Below, piece by piece: positions 22,135-58,696 of a stretch of 64,000 nucleotides of DNA. Position numbers and translations under genes: made by a program. The stretch spans positions 124,001-188,000 of the forward strand of contig JAPJBO010000371.1 of NCBI GenBank assembly GCA_030068145.1. Reading direction: 5' to 3'. The DNA is from Diplonema papillatum (Eukaryota > Euglenozoa > Diplonemea > Diplonemida > Diplonemidae). Position 1 is the first letter of the stretch. Each line of letters opens with the position of its first letter. The notes below the pieces were generated by a model. The model was given only the letters and a program-made list of their open reading frames with translations, ran no database searches and was not told the origin of the DNA.

Positions 22135-22350
22135 CTAATCTAAGCTGGGTACAGGGGCGAAACACCCATAGAACCATCTAGTAGCTGGTTCACTCCGAAG
22201 TTTCCCTCAGGATAGCTAGAACCAAAACAGGAGTTACGCCAGGTAAAGCGAATGATTGGAGGCATTTGGAGAAATTGCTTCCTCGACCTATTCTCAAACT
22301 TTAAATGGGCGTGAGCTCCGGGTTACTTCATTGAACCCTGACGTGGCGGG
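22135..22350 (+). rRNA. Nuclear 28S (LSU) rRNA fragment, 5'/domain II region
   Basis: Contains the conserved LSU stretches CAGGGGCGAAA, GAACCATCTAGTAGCTGGTT, CCGAAGTTTCCCTCAGGATAG, GGTAAAGCGAATGATTGGAG and GACCTATTCTCAAACTTTAA in the correct order and spacing. These are the eukaryotic cytosolic versions, not organellar ones. Sequence on both sides is unrelated to rRNA, so this is an isolated piece of about 215 bp and presumably a pseudogene. Several conserved positions are altered. Confidence 0.8.
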
Positions 22351-24387
22351 TGACGTTGTGAGAAGGTTGTGGGTGCACAGTGCTGGCCACGGTTGAATGT
22401 TTTTTCCGACAACGCTCGCTCGAGTCCCGGAGTTTGCGATTTTCGCTTGCGTAGTACCCAGGCCTTACGTTCAGCATGCTGAATGTACGGATTCCAGCAC
22501 GTCAATTTTCTTAGTTTCTTTTGTACACATGCTGAAATCAGTACGTTATCAGCACGTACTATCTTTTCTGCAGATTCATCTGGGGAATCAACCGCAGTAA
22601 CGGCAAATCCTGCTGTTGCTTACCACAGCGACACTGGAGTGTTGAGGCCGTGGAGGAGGCAGAGGCAAAGACATGCAACACTGGCAGGTGAGCCCCCTAT
22701 GCTCTATTTCTTTTTTGCCTGACCCTACGTACTGATTTTCAGTAGGTATTTAGCTCCAAGACAAAACCCCGGATCCCTGAGCGAACTTGCACTCTACAAA
22801 AGAGTTGCGTAAGCCCTGGTAGTACCCGCCTTGTGGACAACTGGCTGCGGTGTGTTTGGACTGGACTGTATGAGCTCCGCTGCATGATTCTCTTGAGAAC
22901 TCTTGTAGTCGGATGTGGCTTGCCGTCTCTGCAGTGACGCGCTTTGTTGTTCGACGTGGCGTGCTGCAGCGGGATCCGGTCCGAGGCGGCTCGATTTCCA
23001 ACGGAAGTTTTTTATGGTAACAAGCTTGCTTGTCTATATCAAAAAGTGTCGGCTGGTAGCGTGCTGTGCTAAATCACTCGGAACAGGGTTTACACACGTA
23101 CGCACAAAAAATATGCCGGCTGTGCCTACCCTAGAACGAATGGACCTACCGAACGTAGATTGGGATACCATCCCAGCCGTACTATTTCCGGCGAGCAGCC
23201 CGTCGGCTGTGGGACGGAGACAATGCGTTTTTGTCCCATCATGCGATACCGCCCATGATGTCGCCAACGGACGACACTGTTCACGTTGTGGCGGTGTTTG
23301 CATCGCCTCATGCCTGCGGTCCCGGCTCAGGGGCAGGGACAATCGCGACAGATTCGCCTTGCCAGATTTTTTCTGGTCAGGTCTCGATGAATTGTTTTGA
23401 TAGTGCGCAGGCGCTTCTGGGTTGCTTTCGATAACGAACGAGACCTTGACCATCAGGCGTACTCATTGCCTAGAGGGGGGTTTGGCAGCTTGCTTCTCCC
23501 CCAAGATGCGAAGTACTGATTCGACCTACAAGCGCTACTCTCGCTTGCGAAAACAGCAAGCCGCCCCACCCAGATGAGTGCCTACGAGTCTCCTGCTAGT
23601 CACATGTACAGAATCCCAGTACACGATACCTTAAAGGAACCTTTACGACAATGGTCACCCGGAGACTATAAAACCCCGGATCTCTAAGTGAACTTACACT
23701 CTAAAAGTAAAGTCCCGCCCACTTTACTAATGATGAAAGACTGCACGTGCACGTCGGGATGGATCGCCAGCTTGCTTAGCTGCAGTGCTACCATCGTCCC
23801 GACGCAAAGACGCTCGGAGACCCATGAGGCACGGCCATCTTCAGCTAAGGAGTCCAGTACGCGTGCGAGGCTTAGGGTGTGCAATTCACATGTACTGAAA
23901 AGGTGATGTGTCAATCCTTGCACAGCCCGATCCTGATTACCGGAAAGGGGGTTGAGGTCAATTAGTGTGTTTGTGCACTTGCCGGGGCCCGAAGGCTGGT
24001 GGACTATGTCTGGATGGGACGAAAGCCGGGAATCCCTGGTGGAGGTCCGTTGCGGTGTTGCCATGTAAATCGCTCGTGTCAAAGCTGGGTGATGCATGGC
24101 AGACACGGACGTTGCGTCCTTTCAACCTTTTCTTCCGTGCCCGCTTTTGCCCACCATTCGTGCTCTCTGCACACTGCACTTTCCAGCGCCCGGGCTTCTC
24201 TTGTTTTCCGCGTTCTGGTCCGTTCTGTATGCTACCTTCTCAATCCCGATCTCGCCCTTCGTCTTACTTTCCTTGCGCTTCCGCGAAAAATAAGAAGGGG
24301 AAAAAACGCAACAAAGAGAAAAGTCGAAACCTTGCGCGACCAAATAAATGAAGCTTCTTCGTCCTCTTTCATTCGCGATGTACACGA

Positions 24388-47854: not shown

Positions 47855-49644
47855 ATGGCGGTGCGGAGATTAGAGCACCTCAGGATGGGGAAAAGCGGCC
47901 GAAGAAGCACCGGGTCCGACGACGCCCCGCCGCTTGACGAGAAGGGCAAGGACAACAGCATAGCTGACCTCGACACCGCACGGCATAAAGTATGACACTC
48001 TTTTTTTTTGTGTCTCTGTACAATGGCAGGCGGAAGGTTAGCCGCTGGTTGGTCAAAGGTAACGCCCTTTCCCCCGGGTTTCTAAAAAGGCTTATGCGAG
48101 GCAGTGTTCTGCCTAAACATTAAGCTAAGATTTCCCCCCCCCATCCACACGGTGGACCAGCCTCATAAGTTGGAGTTAAAAAGCGGGGGCCACATCTAGC
48201 ACCCTCAAGCTCGTCCACTACGTTCGCCAAGCCAATCCACCCGCTTCTGATAGGCCATGGTCTGTGCCGTGATGGACAGCTCCAAGCAGTTCGAGGACGC
48301 TCCAGAGGCGCACCGTTGCACTTTTTTGTGAAGGTAACCCGGAAACGTCCGCCACCAGACTCACACCGCTGTCGTGTCTGCAGGTCTCAGGTTTTCCGCG
48401 CTGATGATGTTCCGCCTACGCGCCCGTGGCTTAAAGGACCGAAACACGGCGCAGACGGGACCAGTTCAGGTGTTGAGTGCCTATCCATTCAAGCGCGTTC
48501 TTGCAATCCCCAACCAGGGCCACATTCATTGCGAATGTGCTGCGACCGACACCACGAAGAGCTTTTTTTTTTTGGCCAGCCAAAGTGAGAAAAAAGAGCG
48601 AAATATTACGTAAACAGTGTGTTTTTCACCCACCTCGTTTTCTGACAGGTGCGGTCGGTCGCCGAGCTGCTGGCAGCGCGCGACATCATGGGCAGGGTCG
48701 GGCAGTGGGACGAGGGCGGCGAGCGGATGTTCACCCGCGAGCGCCAGCAGCAGGCGACGATGGGCTTCTTCCAGCAGCTCTACCAGCTGCTCAAGTACTC
48801 GCCCGGACGGGACTACCAGCAGAAGCAGGAAGAAGGCGTCGACGCGGCGGCCGCGAAGCTGATGCCCACCGCGAGCGAGGGCACCACAGGCTCTGCCAAG
48901 AAGAAGAAACTCGGCGCCGCGAGCTTCGACATCCGCGAACTCTCCGCTGGCACCGTCGTCGAAGGCGCAGTGTACACCCGGCAGCAGCTGCAAGCCATGC
49001 GCAAGACCCACCCTTTGCTCCGGCACTCCCCCGTGCTCGGGCTCGTCAAAGCGCTCGACCTCCTCGACGACAGCCACAGCCACCAGCGCTTCCCGCCGGA
49101 GCCCGCCAAACAGCAAACCTCGGCACCACCGCCACCATCCTCACGGGTCCCGTCCCACTCCTTCCCGAAGCCGCCGGCAACCGGAACCTCGCCGGCCACG
49201 GAAGCCAGCGGTGTATCAATAGACGACCTCCCGGCGTCTACGCCCGTCAGTCACAGCACCGACGGGGCGAGGGATGTGGTGTGTAAGAAGGAGGCAGCGT
49301 CTGCCGCTCTGCCGAAGCTGGAGCTGGCGGACCCGTCTTATTCGTCGCTGATGATGCAGCTGAAGAAGACGAAGCGAGCCGTCGAAAGTCACGCCCAGTC
49401 GGTCAACACGGTGCAGGCGCTGTTGGACCTGGACAGCTCGCCGCAGCTGAAGAAGACGATCACGAAAATCTTCGCGAATCCGAAAGACGCGGCGGCCATC
49501 TCGCAGGCGGAGTGCAACCGCCGGCAGCAGTTGTACAACGTCGAACGCACCCGCCTCCAGCAGCAGCAGCAGCACGAGCTCAAGAACCAGCGGGCGGAAC
49601 TCGAGCGTGAGATAGGTCACCTTCTCACCCCTGGCACCTTGTGA
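47855..49644 (+). CDS. Coiled-coil protein, two exons, unknown function
   Basis: Exons 47855-47989 and 48649-49644 are joined by a phase-0 GT-AG intron (AAA|GTATGA ... CTGACAG|GTG), giving 376 residues. Exon 1 is polar and basic. Exon 2 starts VRSVAELLAARDIMGRVG and contains an amphipathic aromatic segment (ATMGFFQQLYQLLKYSPGRD), a proline/serine-rich linker (about residues 180-265) and a C-terminal coiled coil with a glutamine run (QQQQQHELKNQRAELEREI). I recognise no family. The intron holds a copy of the 43400-43556 repeat. The stop codon lies inside a 129-bp tandem duplication, so the C-terminal six or seven residues may be recent, and a donor-like GAGC|GTGAGA at about 49604 could splice further. 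The first ATG is preceded by CTTTCCAG, so an upstream exon is possible. Confidence 0.7.
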
Positions 49645-49868
49645 TCCGACTGGGCAAGGTCGCATGCAAGGGCGAACATGCCGTCGTCCTCGTGTGTGTT
49701 CTGCCTCTTTTATCACGTGTGTGGTAGCCGCTTCAGCGGAACTCGACACCTTCTCGCCCCTGGCACCTCGTGATCCGACTGGGCAAGTCGCATTCAAGGG
49801 CGAACGTGCCGTCGTCCTCGTGTGTGTTCTGCCTCTTTTATCACGTGTGCGGTGTCCGCTTCAGCTTG
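49618..49868 (+). repeat. 129-bp tandem duplication over the 3' end of the coiled-coil gene
   Basis: 49618-49746 and 49747-49868 both begin CACCTTCTC(A/G)CCCCTGGCACC and share GTCGTCCTCGTGTGTGTTCT. The first unit contains the TGA stop codon of the upstream gene. Confidence 0.92.
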
Positions 49869-50697: not shown

Positions 50698-53600
50698 ATG
50701 CAGACCGTCGTCGTGACGGGGCTGTCGAAGAAGACTGCCGTGGCTGGGCTGCTCGACGTGCGGCACAAGGACAAGGGGCACAGGGGCCAAGAGGCCAGCG
50801 AGGTCGTGTACAACTACGCGCCCGATGGGGGAGAGGCATTGGATTTGGCATCCGGTGTGCCGCAACGGAGGTTGCCGCGTTGCGGTTGTTGCGTGGAGCC
50901 CGGGTGTTTGGACGCACTCCTCACTGACGACGGGCTCGGCTGCGGCAAAAAGCGGAGGATTGTGTTGACGAACCCGGTGGTAGACGTTGCGCAGCTGATC
51001 GAAACGAATCGCGTCCTATTCAGCAGCCCGGAGACGTTGATCGTCAACACGGTCGCCGCCCGCGATGTGCTCGAGTGCCTGTGGTGCGGGGCCACCGTCG
51101 AAGAGTGGCTCGGACCGAAGATAAAGTGTGATGGCGACGACGAGGTCGACTGCCGCCTGTTCGCTTCCATCATTCACGAGCACATCCAGCTCGCGCAAAT
51201 TGTGCACGTTCACGGTACGCCCCCTTCCCCGTCCTTTGGCGAGCTCCAATTTCGGGGTGGTCCGCGTTCACACCTAGTGTATCCGTGGCTTAAAGGTTTC
51301 GTGCGACCAAAATAATTTTGTTTGTGCGTGCCGGTTGATCGTTTTCCCACTTGTATTCACCTTGTGTCATTTTCAGGTAAGGAATTCTGATCAACCACCG
51401 AAACACGCTGCCTACGTCTTTTTAGCCTGCACAATACATTGAAGGGCAACCCGCAAGATTGTTCGTACTAAACCGTACTAAATCCAAAGCGAATTTCTTC
51501 TTGGTGTCGGTCGCAACACTTTCAAGCATGGCTAGCCGTAGTTAAAGTGTATAAGCATACCTACTACCCGCCTCACAGCCTCAATGGTTAACCGGAGACC
51601 CTAAAACACCGAACCTCTAAACCACAATAAACGCTAAAACGGATCATCGGAATTTTATTCTTCGCTTTTTCTCACAAACGGGGGGGGTCGGTCCTGCTTT
51701 TGGCTTTGTAGGTTCTCCCGACTCCCCTATTCGTGGTCAGCACAAACTCAAGAGGTCTAGTCAACTATTCCCTGCAGTATTGGCATACTTTCAAAAAAAC
51801 ACCGGAAAACAGGTCTCGACGAGCTCTGCGGCGAGAAGACCCGGTCGCTGGTCCTTGACATCGTGCGGTCTCTCAACCACCACGCCCCGGTAATAGGCGG
51901 CGGGCAGGTCGCGGACGTGTGGGAGTTCGCGGGGCCCGTCTACGGGTGCGCCGAGCTCGTCGTGCAGACGTCGGTCCTGCACCTGCTGCGCGCGAGCGCC
52001 GCGCAGCCCCAGCCCGCCCAGCCGCCCCACCGGAAGAAGCGGCGGAAGTCGAACAGCGCGCCGCAGCAGGCACCCGCGCCGCCGCCCGCCGCCGCCGCGC
52101 CGGGCACCGTCGCCGGGTGGGTATACCGGCGGCGCCTGCCGTTCAACGCGGCGAAGCTGCACAGGCTGTGCACGGGTGAGGACTCTCCCCTGCGCAGTGT
52201 GCCGTGCGTCGTGCACTTGGAAGGCACGCTGTGGGTCTTCGGCGACCCGAAGTACTCGTACGAGGCAAAGGCCTACGGGGCGACGCCCGTCTCGGTCCAA
52301 AAGGGCACGGCCTGGTGGGCCAGCGTCCCCGTCGTCGAATGGCCCGTGCGGATCTACAGCGGCATCGCGAACGACTGCGACGGGAAGGACATGGACCGCC
52401 GCCAGGAGATCGTCGTCTGCACGGCGGACAAAACCGCGCTGCCCGACGGCGGGCAGACCGCCCGAGAGTTCGTCGAAGGGCTCCTCGACGAGTGCTTGGT
52501 GAAGGACTACGACTTCGAAGCGTGCAGAGGCTCGCGGGAGAAGGAGAGGGAAGCCATGGATGAGGCTGAAAAAACGGCGCTTAAACGGCTCCGCGACCCG
52601 GACGGCGAGGCCGGAAAAGCGAAGAAACGAGCGAAGCAACGGGAAGAAGACGAGGAAAGCGAAGAAGGCGAAGAAGATGAAGAAGACGGCGAAGACGAAA
52701 CGAAGGAAGATGGGGAGGGGGGAGACGGCGGCAGCGACACGTCGGACACGCTGTTCCTCGCGTCGTCCACGTCGAGCAGCTTCTACGAAGAGAACGAGAC
52801 CTTCTTCAACGACGCGGCAGAACCGGCACTCCTCCTCGACAACGACCACCCTAACGACCCATACCCCGTCCTCTACGTGCCGACGGTGGACGCCCCTGCA
52901 GTGCCCGGCGGCTCCTCTCCGAAGGGGAAAAAGCCGCGGCGCCGGAAGCGGAAGCAGGTTGCGGCGGCGGGCTGCGCGGGGGAAGGCGGGGCGCGGCCGG
53001 AGGAGCGGCGGTCGTTCACGGCGGCGTGGCTGCGGGCGCAGGAGGACAAAGGGCTCGCTGCGAGCAAGGACGCGTGGTACGGCCGCGGGCGCGCGTACTG
53101 GCAGGGGCTGGTCGTCTCGCTGCGGGGCGTCGAGCTCGACGGCATGCACTGGTACGACGTGCGGCACAGCCGCCAGTTCTTCGACCGCTTCCGGCTGCAC
53201 GGCGCCATGGCCCTCGACCTGGCCGGCGGCATCGGCCGCTTCGTCGACGGCGTCCTCGCTGACCGCTACGCGTCGGTCCACTTGGTCGAAGGCGCATCGC
53301 AGCTCGCCGCCGCCGCCAAGCGCGGGCTGACCCGCGCCCGGTTCCAATACCGGCGGTGCACCGCCGTCTCCGTCGAGCAGGCCCAGCTGCAGAGCTGGGA
53401 GCCTTCGTACGCGCTGCGCGCGGCGGTGGACCTGGTCGCGATCACGTGGGTGCTGATGTTCTTCACGGACGACGACGTTCTCGCCCTCCTCCGGAAGGCG
53501 CGCTCGTGCCTGAGGCCCGGCGGCGGCGTCATCTACTGCAAGGAGAACACAGTTGAAGGGCTGCTCGCCGTCAACACCACGAACAGCTCGACCAATCGCT

Positions 53601-53725
53601 CGCCCCAGCACTTGAGGCTTCTCTTCGACGCCGCGGGGCTCGCCGTCCAACACGAGGAATTCATGCAGGACGTCCCTCCCAACGTTCATCAGCCCATCGC
53701 CTTCTTGCTAAAGGCAAAGTCTTAG
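50698..53725 (+). CDS. Fusion protein: degenerate CobW/ZNG1-type GTPase + NTMT1-type N-terminal methyltransferase
   Basis: Exons 50698-51214 and 51813-53725; the split codon G|GT gives Gly173. 809 residues. Residues 1-173 align with the COG0523/CobW GTPase domain, but the P-loop is reduced to TGLSKKTAV, the switch II/DTxG-like and NKxD motifs are gone, and only the metal-binding CGCC (62-65) is kept. Residues 174-405 continue with the family's LNHHAPVI block and a CobW C-terminal domain (GWVYRRRLPFNAAKLHRL, then MDRRQEIVVCTA and LLDECLVKDY). An acidic Glu/Asp linker (about 420-485) follows. Residues about 590-809 are an NTMT/METTL11 methyltransferase: AWYGRGRAYWQG, SAM motif I ALDLAGGIGRFVD, VAITWVLMFFTDDD, CLRPGGGVIYCKEN and NSSTNRSPQHLRLLF. 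Such enzymes methylate the alpha-amino group of X-Pro-Lys N-termini. No intron separates the two parts, and the frame is continuous. Confidence 0.88.
51319..51478 (+). repeat. Intronic copy of the 9058-9225 repeat
   Basis: Near-identical to 9058-9225, in the 598-bp intron of the CobW-NTMT gene. With the 51549-51637 copy of the 41-kb repeat, most of this intron is made of two mobile-repeat insertions. Confidence 0.85.
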
Positions 53726-54511
53726 TTGCTGATCCGCTCACCGCGGGATTGCATCGGAACGACACACCAGGCAATGAGGGGCAACTGCATAGCTCTCTCG
53801 CCGTAGATCGTGCAGGTTTGGAAGGTGGGCGGACGGTGTTGTCAGCCGACAATCGCGAATCCGTCATGCTTCTTCTTGCAAAGACACTGTGTGTGGCCGC
53901 CAAAATGTGGCCGCCGCCAAGCGCGGGCTGACCCGCGCCCGGTTCCAATACCGGCGGCGCGCCTCTGTCTCCGTCGAGCAGGCCCAGCTGCAGCGCTTGG
54001 AGCCTTCATACGCGCTGCGCGCGGCGGTGGACCTGGTCGCGATCACGTGGGTGCTGATGTTCTTCACGGACGACGACGTTCTCGCCCTCCTCCGGAAGGC
54101 GCGCTCGTGCCTGAGGCCCGGCGGCGGCGTCATCTACTGCAAGGAGAACACGGTTGAAGGGCTGCTCGCCGTCAACACCACGAACAGCTCGACCAATCGC
54201 TCGCCCCAGCACTTGAGGCTTCTCTTCGACGCCGCGGGGCTCGCCGTCCAACACGAGGAATTCATGCAGGACGTCCCTCCCAACGTTCATCAGCCCATCG
54301 CCTTCTTGCTAAATCCAAAGTCTTAGTTGCTGATCCGCTCACCGCGGGATTGCATCGGAACGACACACCAGGCGATGGGGGGCAACTGCATAGCTCTCTC
54401 GCCGTAGATCGTGCAGGTTTGGAAGGTGGGCGGACGGTGTTGTCAGCCGACAAGCGCGAATCCGTCATGCTTCTTCTTGCAAAGACACCGTGTGTGGCCG
54501 CCAAAATGTGG
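53310..54511 (+). repeat. 601-bp tandem duplication of the methyltransferase 3' end
   Basis: 53310-53910 and 53911-54511 match at a constant offset of 601 bp with only about a dozen differences by eye. The unit runs from CCGCCGCCAAGCGCGGGCTG to GCCGCCAAAATGTGG. It includes the last 416 bp of the CobW-NTMT coding sequence and 185 bp downstream. After 54511 the similarity stops. Confidence 0.95.
53911..54326 (+). pseudogene. Duplicated C-terminal part of the methyltransferase
   Basis: Second copy of the last 138 codons of the NTMT domain, still fully open, ending LLNPKS where the first copy ends LLKAKS. It lacks SAM motif I and any plausible start, so it is probably untranslated unless spliced as an alternative last exon. 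Because the frame is intact and the differences few, the duplication is recent. Confidence 0.7.
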
Positions 54512-55831: not shown

Positions 55832-56449
55832 ATGGAGCCGTTTCGCAAGGAGGAAGTCAAGGAACGAAAGGGCGAGTATGGTTTGACGCACTGCATCCCG
55901 GTGCGGGAGGTGCCGAGCTACGAGTTCCACGAAGCGAACTACGAGGCCGGGATGCAGACGTACCGTCAGATGATCGAGGTTGCCACGCAGGAGGATCCGC
56001 CGTTCCCTGTGGCGGTGGAAGAGGCGGCGTACTGGAAGTGGCAGAACCAGAAGGAATGGGCCTGGTGGGGCGGCGGCATCGCCGCCGGTGCCGGGGCAGG
56101 CGCCGCGGCAACGCCGTATCTGGTGCCGTCGTACGCGCTGCAAGCGGAGCGGTTGATGAAGCACCGGAGGCACATGTTCATGGCGGGCGGCGTCGCTGTG
56201 ACTTCATACGCCATCGAAACCCTGCGGCTCTTCGATTACCACGGACTGCTCTGCGAAGGGCTGCAGGCGAGGACGCCCCTCGGCGACTATGTCCGGGCGA
56301 CCTATGACCACAAGCTGTCCGCCGACCTGGGCAGTAAAGGGTTTGTCGGGAGTGTCTTCGGCGTCTTCCGTGATGCCCACAACTACTTGAGCGACCTGAC
56401 AGACTTTGCGGTCCCAGGTTCCCTCACCAACCTCTTGAGCAACGTGTAA
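55832..56449 (+). CDS. Unknown 205-residue protein, possibly membrane-associated
   Basis: Single-exon frame of 205 codons from ATG 55832, with coding-type GC-rich third positions unlike the spacer around it. Residues 1-65 are polar and charged. Residues about 66-100 are tryptophan then Gly/Ala-rich (EWAWWGGGIAAGAGAGAAAT) and could be a membrane segment or hairpin. A second hydrophobic stretch (MFMAGGVAVTSYAIETLRLF) lies at about 112-131. The C-terminal 70 residues are soluble-looking (GSKGFVGSVFGVFRDAHNYL). No family recognised. The two short hydrophobic segments would fit a small organellar membrane protein, but that is inference. Confidence 0.7.
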   Translation: MEPFRKEEVKERKGEYGLTHCIPVREVPSYEFHEANYEAGMQTYRQMIEVATQEDPPFPVAVEEAAYWKWQNQKEWAWWGGGIAAGAGAGAAATPYLVPSYALQAERLMKHRRHMFMAGGVAVTSYAIETLRLFDYHGLLCEGLQARTPLGDYVRATYDHKLSADLGSKGFVGSVFGVFRDAHNYLSDLTDFAVPGSLTNLLSNV

Positions 56450-58618
56450 CCCCACTCCGAGCACGCGTCGGGTCACACGCCTCCAATGTATTCAAAACCT
56501 CGTGAAGGTGACATGACAGATGCTTTGACTCGCCCGTGCTCCCTTCCTAGCCTCGTAAGCATCGTGCCTTCGTCCGAGCGGCGAGCTTGCGCACGTTTTT
56601 AACACCTTAGGCGTCTCGGCTGCACGGGCGCGACATGAAAGACGCTGCACCTAAGCAACGGCACGTGGAACCCTTGATCGAGCTCGCATCGAACGGCACA
56701 TGTTTCCGTCTGGCCACAAGATGGGACAACGTTTTCTTTTCATGCTAACAATGCATTGTTGGTACAAAGGGTAGTTGGCAGCGTACAACATGAAACTTGC
56801 CAACGCAGGCGAGTCCAGCTAGTGCGCACGAACAAACTACCAGGTATGGGAGTTTGACGCTACGAGAGGCCTCAGATCCAAATTGTGGGCAATTCTCACG
56901 TATCGTCTCGATCGATAAATGGTCAGCAAGCCAATCATAGTCGAAGCGGAAGTCGAGCGCAGTCCAGAGATTTGATTTTCAAGCGGCACCGCGCCCATCG
57001 AATGCGGTTGACGACCGGATGAGTCGCATGTTCCCTTTGACCTCGCCCGTCCTCGTGCGACTGCAGTTAAATTGAGGGGAGCAGTTGTTTTGCCTTTTCT
57101 CCGATGCTCGGCATTCTTGGGGTTCCTTCATGGCCGTGTTTGAATCCTACCGCCAATGCCGTCGACGACCTGCTTAGCCTCATGCCTTCCCTCGCGCGGC
57201 GTTGTTTTGTGCTAGGTTCTTTGACGAGCCTAAACGCCGCTCAGGGCAGGTGACGATGAGGCTCGCGCTTCTGGGTTCGGCAGCGTTACTCAGCGCAGCT
57301 GAACACCGGCGGCGCACTTCGCACACGGCTGACGGGTGCGCCTTATAGTGGTAACAGCATTACCGAGCCGGCCCCTTCCCGGTCCCGATGGCTGCATGGC
57401 CTGCTCGAACCGCGATCAGTTGCTGCTGGTCATGCCCGTCAGCGCAGGACAGTACTCTTGTTCTGATATTTTCTGCACCACGTGCTTATCAAACGAATGA
57501 CAGCACTTGAAGAAGCTAGACAAGTTCTGCTAAAGACGTGCCACGCGTATTGCAGTCTATGACAAAACGTTGTGTGAGGAAATCGGAAGTTTCGAAGGGG
57601 GTTTTGCGGCTTTTCCCCTTTGCGGGCCAGCTTCTTCTCATCAGCCAGTACAACGATCAGAAAGCCGTCAACGCCGCGACGTGTGGGCCAATACCACCGA
57701 GTACAAATGACTACCGGTTCCGCAAGCCAAGTCCGCCTTCGCATTGCAAGTTTGCTGGGGTCGTTTCTCGTTTTCTTCTTCTTTCCCCTGTTGCTTTTGC
57801 CTACGACCTATCGGTCGCTCCGTTTGGATTCTGTTTTTTTTTTTTTTTTTCTTTTTTGCCGTAACGTTCGGACTTTTGCCCCGCTTTTCGCGTTCCCGCG
57901 CCACGCTGAAGGGAAGCCCACGAAAGGCGGACGGTGCTCGCCGCCTGATGCCCTGGGCACCCCGCGGCTCCTGACAACGGGAGAGAAGGATTGCCGAGCG
58001 GGAGATCCGTCCCGAAATTCCGCTAGCGCCTCGTGGCCCGGGGACCAGTGGGGGGGGGGGGTAGGGGGTCCAATGGCAAGCCAAAAAAACGTGTTTTGCA
58101 TTTTTTCGAGCTCTGGCGGCAAAGTCGGTTGACTGCATGAGGTACCTCCCCCATACCGGCGCCTTCACACCAAAAAAATACCGAAAACTGCATCAAATAG
58201 CCACCTACCGCCCGCATTTGGTCGCAAATTCTCTTTTTTAGGGTTTTGAAAGTGTGGACAAAGTGTGGACACTTTGCACAATTCTCTCCTTTCAGCCGCC
58301 GGCGACAATAAAGTGCGACTCCGAGCTGAGTTTCAGCCAAGCATACCATCTTGCGGGTCATGTTGCCACTAAAAGATGTATCCGGGTGCATTTTGGACTC
58401 CAGAAGCGTTCAGAGACTGTGCAGCCTCACGTAAAAAAAGGTAGGACCAGCCGGAATGCTGCAACTTTTGTGAGAAACCCAGCTCACATGACCGCAGAGA
58501 GCTCTTGAACTGACGCAAACTGTGCAGACCTCGGCCTGTGACCGTACCATAGTGTCAACAGCAGGGTCAGTCGGTCAACAACAGGGCATTTTTTGACCAC
58601 TAAACCTCATGGATTGAT
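56450..58618. other. Gene-free region
   Basis: 56748-56835 is a copy of the GCATTGTTGGTAC repeat family. 57835-57852 is a T-run. The rest (56450-56740, 56840-58610) shows no supported coding region. Confidence 0.5.
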
Positions 58619-58696
58619 GTGTACACGGTGTGTACACGGTCTGTACACGGTCTGTACACGGTCTGTACACGGTGTGTACACGGTGTGTACACGGTA
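58619..58696 (+). repeat. 11-bp tandem repeat TGTACACGGT(G/C), about 7 copies
   Basis: Seven consecutive 11-mers, each with the palindrome TGTACA. The variable last base is C in the centre units and G in the outer ones. Confidence 0.93.

Follow-up and report, generated by a model that had tools for sequence, protein, structure and literature searches.

Does a single gene of Diplonema papillatum join a zinc-protein module to a module that modifies protein N-termini, and could the two halves still work as their relatives do? An initial annotation of one locus raised this question by describing a fusion of a ZNG1-type CobW metallochaperone to an N-terminal methyltransferase, and by proposing that it couples metal-dependent methionine excision to alpha-N-methylation, for example by docking on METAP1. 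The locus lies in the nuclear genome of this marine euglenozoan flagellate, and the window that we analyzed is a stretch of 64,000 nucleotides (contig C371, 124001-188000).

The proposed gene structure, with its start, splice sites, in-phase split codon and stop, was reproduced in full: exons 50698-51214 and 51813-53725, with ATG at 50698, GT at 51215, AG at 51811-51812 and the stop codon at 53723-53725, are spliced in frame to encode a fusion protein of 809 aa. The motifs pointed out earlier were also found in it (CGCC 62-65, LNHHAPV 193-199, DRRQE 367-371, LDECL 397-401 and DLAGGIGR 641-648). A protein search returned a public record, 'Alpha N-terminal protein methyltransferase 1 [Diplonema papillatum]', with the same 809 residues as our spliced model; its title covers the methyltransferase only, which makes the CobW half invisible to name searches. 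The remark that both halves sit mostly in one exon is right by length, as about 237 of the 409 residues of the CobW half are encoded by exon 2, but residues 1-172, including the CGCC site, come from exon 1 and thus rely on the intron; the CobW_C domain, the linker and the methyltransferase all lie within the single exon 2. The features of the locus are as follows.

50698..51214, + strand: exon 1, with the start codon and the first part of a degenerate CobW/COG0523 G-domain; GLSKKT at the Walker A place and CGCC at residues 62-65 (from motifs and the public protein)
51215..51812, + strand: intron of 598 bp, GT-AG, phase 1, with stops in all six frames and flat GC by codon position
51813..52522, + strand: first part of exon 2, with the end of the G-domain (HGLD at the NKxD place; LNHHAPVI), a basic/Pro-Ala insert and the ZigA-type CobW_C domain (272-409)
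52523..53050, + strand: linker, residues 410-585, an acidic stretch with a 9-bp repeat followed by the basic cluster KKPRRRKRK (545-553)
53051..53725, + strand: the methyltransferase domain, of the NTMT1/METTL11-like family PF05891, with residues 586-809 and the stop codon (592-799 in the Pfam match)
53910..54511, + strand: partial copy, in tandem, of the methyltransferase's 3' end with the flank that follows it; 602 nt aligned at 97.7%, SAM motif absent

An open frame alone is little proof of coding here, because the DNA is GC-rich and the antisense strand of exon 2 is likewise open, for 638 codons. In Markov simulations the linker was stop-free in 119 of 2000 runs, and the whole of exon 2 in none of 2000. 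Codon usage is better coding evidence for the fusion frame than its length: trained on 1850 codons from five gene pieces, mostly COG0523 paralogues, it ranked the annotated frame first of six in all six segments, both linker segments included, with a slightly negative score (under composition background) in segments 173-272 and 413-500. GC3 was 0.68-0.94 in the coding sequence of the fusion gene versus 0.45-0.49 in the intron. The identity of the spliced and public models counts as support rather than proof, since, according to a passage of PMC10161547, inaccurate structures were present in 125 of the 319 automatic D. papillatum gene models of three curated contigs.

In the part that it shares with the fusion gene's coding sequence, the tandem duplicate differs at nine codons, seven of them residue-changing; gene-adjacent partial repeats, mostly of 5' regions, are described for the D. 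papillatum genome in part of the same source (PMC10161547). A downstream 204-aa ORF (55835-56449) had no Pfam match at E up to 0.1, and four other ORFs of the window had no Pfam match. Elsewhere the window contains a lone 160-nt fragment of eukaryotic LSU rRNA (22201-22360, 93 bits), upstream of the fusion gene, 1.9 copies of a 128-bp unit (49618-49865), and an 11-bp unit, TGTGTACACGG, repeated about seven times (58618-58695).

Judged by its sequence, the N-terminal half is COG0523/CobW-related, nearer to ZigA than to ZNG1, and strongly degenerate. PF02492, by which the initial annotation expected the half to be recognized, had no match in the fusion protein at E up to 1. The CobW_C domain that had been placed at residues 270-405 is present: the NCBIfam ZigA model (NF038288) covers 272-409 with E 1.2e-8 and 34.3 bits, against an equivalog cut-off of 600 bits, and BLASTP against the organism's own ZigA-like protein (contig C408) aligns 272-407 with 27% identity and E 3e-12. 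On an HMM built from 11 COG0523 sequences, residues 269-412 scored 32.0 bits, while the best of 1000 shuffles scored 4.6. Pfam CobW_C matches 273-376 with 13.4 bits, under the curated cut-off of 22; by the comparisons above, the domain is real despite that score. The G-domain (1-225) reached 10.1 bits on the 11-sequence HMM, with 4.4 for the best of 1000 shuffles, and hhalign gave it a score of 34.2 (at a probability of only 37%, with the signal from residues ~146-202) versus 23.1 for the best of 100 shuffles, which points to a homology with COG0523 that is weak yet above chance. Against PDB sequences, the CobW half had no significant match (best E 0.69); the ZigA-like paralogue matched E. coli YjiA in the same kind of search. 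We assign the half to the ZigA rather than the ZNG1 type because both its best family model and its nearest CobW paralogue are of the ZigA type.

Of the motifs of this half, CxCC, the metal site that lies between Walker A and Walker B, is kept as CGCC, which aligns with CICC. The Walker A motif GxxxxGK[ST] is absent, with the shorter GLSKKT at residue 8; the Walker B-type motif E-x-[ST]-G is absent, its slot being LTDDGLG in the MAFFT alignment or LTNPVV by eye; and NKxD is absent, with HGLD in its slot. Among 12 comparison COG0523 rows, CxCC and the Walker B-type motif occur in all 12 and Walker A in 10 (the two misses have a cut or foreign N-terminus), and NK is found in all 12, once by alignment only, with the final D of NKxD in nine. 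The viral locus L049, with its foreign-looking N-terminus, was kept out of the HMM and in the motif count, and L002 was taken without its second exon. With Walker A, Walker B and NKxD gone, nucleotide binding by the CobW half is unlikely.

The C-terminal half, expected to match PF05891, does so with E 3e-23 and 82.8 bits, against a curated cut-off of 27. Its best solved relatives are the Leishmania protein 1xtp (E 9e-22) and human NTMT1, 2ex4 (E 6e-14). Aligned to these, it keeps the SAM motif DLAGGIGR and the equivalents of W136 and N168, and it differs from human NTMT1 by D177N, D180N and H140F, with the human positions assigned by counting. The equivalent of M30 is Val, as in 1xtp, which has Tyr at the place of residue 140 and keeps Asp at 177 and 180. 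A passage of PMC6214909 lists W136, N168, D177 and D180 as direct substrate-binding residues of NTMT1, and in part of PMC10166787 catalysis by METTL11A is inhibited by D180K or D180N, the D180K form still regulating METTL13. We infer that alpha-N-methylation by the fusion is weak or absent.

A PF02492 search of the D. papillatum genome found four other CobW loci (contigs C638, C1142, C408 and C883), and these separate CobW genes carry GTPase motifs. We take the C883 gene, with its GTPase motifs, to be ZNG1-like, a likeness judged by reading it against the general features of ZNG1 and not by a tree. In a contig scan the C408 ZigA-like protein (L003) had a sole relative, L011 from a Bacteroidetes MAG, to which it is 48% identical; its gene is a possible bacterial acquisition. 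A genome search found two further PF05891 genes, on contigs C152 (two exons) and C467. The C152 gene keeps a DDSS block with an Asp180-type residue; two acceptor sites fit, of which the first was used for the alignment, and the block is in the second exon either way. The stand-alone C467 paralogue (L006 1495-2274) has the top PF05891 score in the genome search, 160 bits, and it too is without the Asp180-type residue, having an RRRSAS block. A search of the genome with the fusion found it once in full and once as the tandem fragment; the C152 gene stayed below threshold, and the nearest paralogues were the C467 NTMT protein (31%) and the C408 ZigA-like protein (29%).

The earlier statement that no protein with this architecture has been described still holds among the database candidates and among the papers listed by our literature searches, the latter as judged by titles and the starts of abstracts. 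In searches of 5.8 billion proteins, in which the roughly 8000 candidates sharing most words with each query were scored (7984, 7995 and 7996), no second protein with the fusion architecture was found; the CobW half alone had one weak bacterial relative (E 6e-4) among its ~8000 scored candidates. Viral contigs contained no relative of the fusion protein and none of the C467 paralogue; the ZigA queries found three loci each, on the same three contigs, which served as comparison rows. Across 148 genomes from the phylum of genome G001, matches to PF05891 were weak (37 reached E<=1e-3 and 13 exceeded the cut-off). We rejected as a parallel a Streptomyces plasmid on which a class I methyltransferase comes after a ZigA-like gene, since that methyltransferase matches LCM and not PF05891. 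AlphaFold models of the fusion were poor, with a mean pLDDT of 39.7 for a four-row alignment (the fusion protein P0001, P0002 and translated loci L011 and L048) and 41.1 for a six-row alignment that also included L049 and L053. In summary, the spliced model, the PF05891 match and the CobW_C domain seen by the ZigA model bear out a one-gene fusion of a CobW/COG0523-related half and an NTMT-family methyltransferase; at the level of the gene model it is confirmed as a genuine domain fusion, with altered active sites and so far in one species.

The explanation that we favor, with a probability of about one in three, is that the fusion is a metal-binding regulatory partner without turnover of its own ('prozyme'), paired with the C152 NTMT protein and responsive to zinc. 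In broader terms, we favor a regulatory fusion that binds metal and is either non-catalytic or altered in specificity. The ZigA-type COG0523 half, which keeps CxCC and CobW_C and has lost its nucleotide-binding motifs, would be a pseudo-GTPase; we infer that metal would be bound at CGCC and that there would be no GTPase cycle. The NTMT-family domain, which keeps a SAM-binding motif and has lost residues used in alpha-amine methylation, would pair with the separate C152 protein, in which the Asp180-type residue is kept, and the CxCC/CobW_C arm would render this pairing, or the place where it occurs, zinc-responsive. We suggest this by analogy, because METTL11B and a T. brucei PRMT1 paralogue act in such a way on their partners: a passage of PMC10908127 describes METTL11B as an activator of METTL11A that need not be catalytic itself, and an inactive PRMT1 paralogue of T. 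brucei as a prozyme. The same passage reports that METTL11B D232N, equivalent to D177N, weakens binding to METTL11A, a result that speaks against an identical mode of pairing in the fusion, and it also counts against a C152 pairing that the fusion's methyltransferase is closer to the C467 protein than to the C152 protein. A regulatory role has a further precedent in the Chlamydomonas CobW/WW protein, a nuclear repressor according to part of PMC12891040, and the basic clusters 246-251 and 545-553 of the fusion could be nuclear signals. The more far-reaching idea, that a zinc-sensing pseudo-GTPase and a pseudo-methyltransferase (a 'metal-gated prozyme') tune N-terminal methylation by zinc status in diplonemids, is quite improbable.

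The fusion might instead be catalytically active on a different substrate: its NTMT-like domain would bind SAM and methylate something other than canonical X-Pro-Lys N-termini, and the degenerate CobW half would be no more than a docking or metal-binding scaffold. Some catalysis is possible, since the domain, recognized by PF05891 at E 3e-23, retains Asn168, Trp136 and the SAM motif; CobW_C is better kept than the G-domain. The loss of the Asp180-type residue may be diplonemid variation rather than inactivation, because the C467 paralogue is also without it yet has its high score, and the change may thus be tolerated in this family here. Set against this are the change of both substrate-binding residues, D177 and D180 (passage of PMC6214909), and the inhibition of METTL11A by D180N (part of PMC10166787), which leave the shifted-substrate explanation a tentative one, somewhat unlikely. 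That the gene is a young, decaying chimera with no selected function is less probable still: both active sites are eroded, no other full-length relative occurs among the ~8000 candidates scored per query, and a truncated tandem copy adjoins the gene, but the 809-codon frame is intact with its codon usage first in every segment, and neighboring motifs have been lost whereas the SAM motif and CxCC persist.

It is also rather improbable that the public model is over-joined and that spliced-leader trans-splicing within the linker produces a separate methyltransferase mRNA. D. papillatum does trans-splice a spliced leader, groups of its genes are probably transcribed together, and many automatic models were inaccurate, all as described in part of PMC10161547; Met421 lies just past CobW_C. 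However, CobW_C, linker and methyltransferase form one uninterrupted exon in one frame, the best of six through the linker, and the public model is identical to ours. Least probable by far is the coupling first proposed, a working ZNG1-like metallochaperone tied to alpha-N-methylation via METAP1. The domain fusion is as described and CxCC is present, but the coupling needs both halves to be active, one as GTPase and the other as NTMT, and the sequence speaks against each: the GTPase motifs are lost and the equivalents of D177, D180 and H140 are replaced. The assignment to ZNG1 does not stand beside the ZigA-type model and paralogue and the separate ZNG1-like gene. Docking on METAP1 finds no basis either, as the fusion starts at its first strand (MQTVVV) with no N-terminal extension, where vertebrate ZNG1 has its docking motif for METAP1; no in-frame Met precedes the start before a stop, and a further upstream exon is possible. 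Zinc transfer from ZNG1 to MetAP1 is itself GTP-dependent according to a passage of PMC10642216.

If expressed as annotated, the protein would carry a zinc-protein module and a module that modifies N-termini on the same chain, each with an altered active site, and would provide a natural test of COG0523 modules and NTMT-family domains as non-catalytic regulators. With the ZigA-type zinc metallochaperone GTPases (NF038288) it shares CxCC and a CobW_C domain in which the W-W and DRRQE/LDECL blocks are present, but it is without Walker A, Walker B and NKxD, scores 34 bits against the 600 required, and has a methyltransferase attached. ZNG1, the eukaryotic COG0523 zinc transferase for MetAP1, belongs to the same superfamily and has CxCC; the fusion, unlike it, is nearer ZigA and has neither GTPase motifs nor an N-terminal extension, and the genome has a ZNG1-like gene of its own. 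NTMT1/METTL11A and Leishmania 1xtp are of the same family by sequence (PF05891), with the SAM motif and the W136 and N168 equivalents in common, whereas D177N, D180N and H140F set the fusion apart from NTMT1/METTL11A, as does the position of its methyltransferase as the C-terminal part of a chimera. Like METTL11B and the T. brucei PRMT1 prozyme in the passage of PMC10908127, the fusion may be a non-catalytic regulatory paralogue beside one that keeps the residues, in a partnership that is here only presumed; neither of those proteins is fused to a CobW domain. Lastly, Chlamydomonas CBP1 (CobW, CobW_C and WW) likewise joins a eukaryotic COG0523 module to another domain and has a regulatory role according to part of PMC12891040, which also shows the difference: Walker A, Walker B and NKID are all retained in CBP1, whose partner domain is WW and not a methyltransferase.
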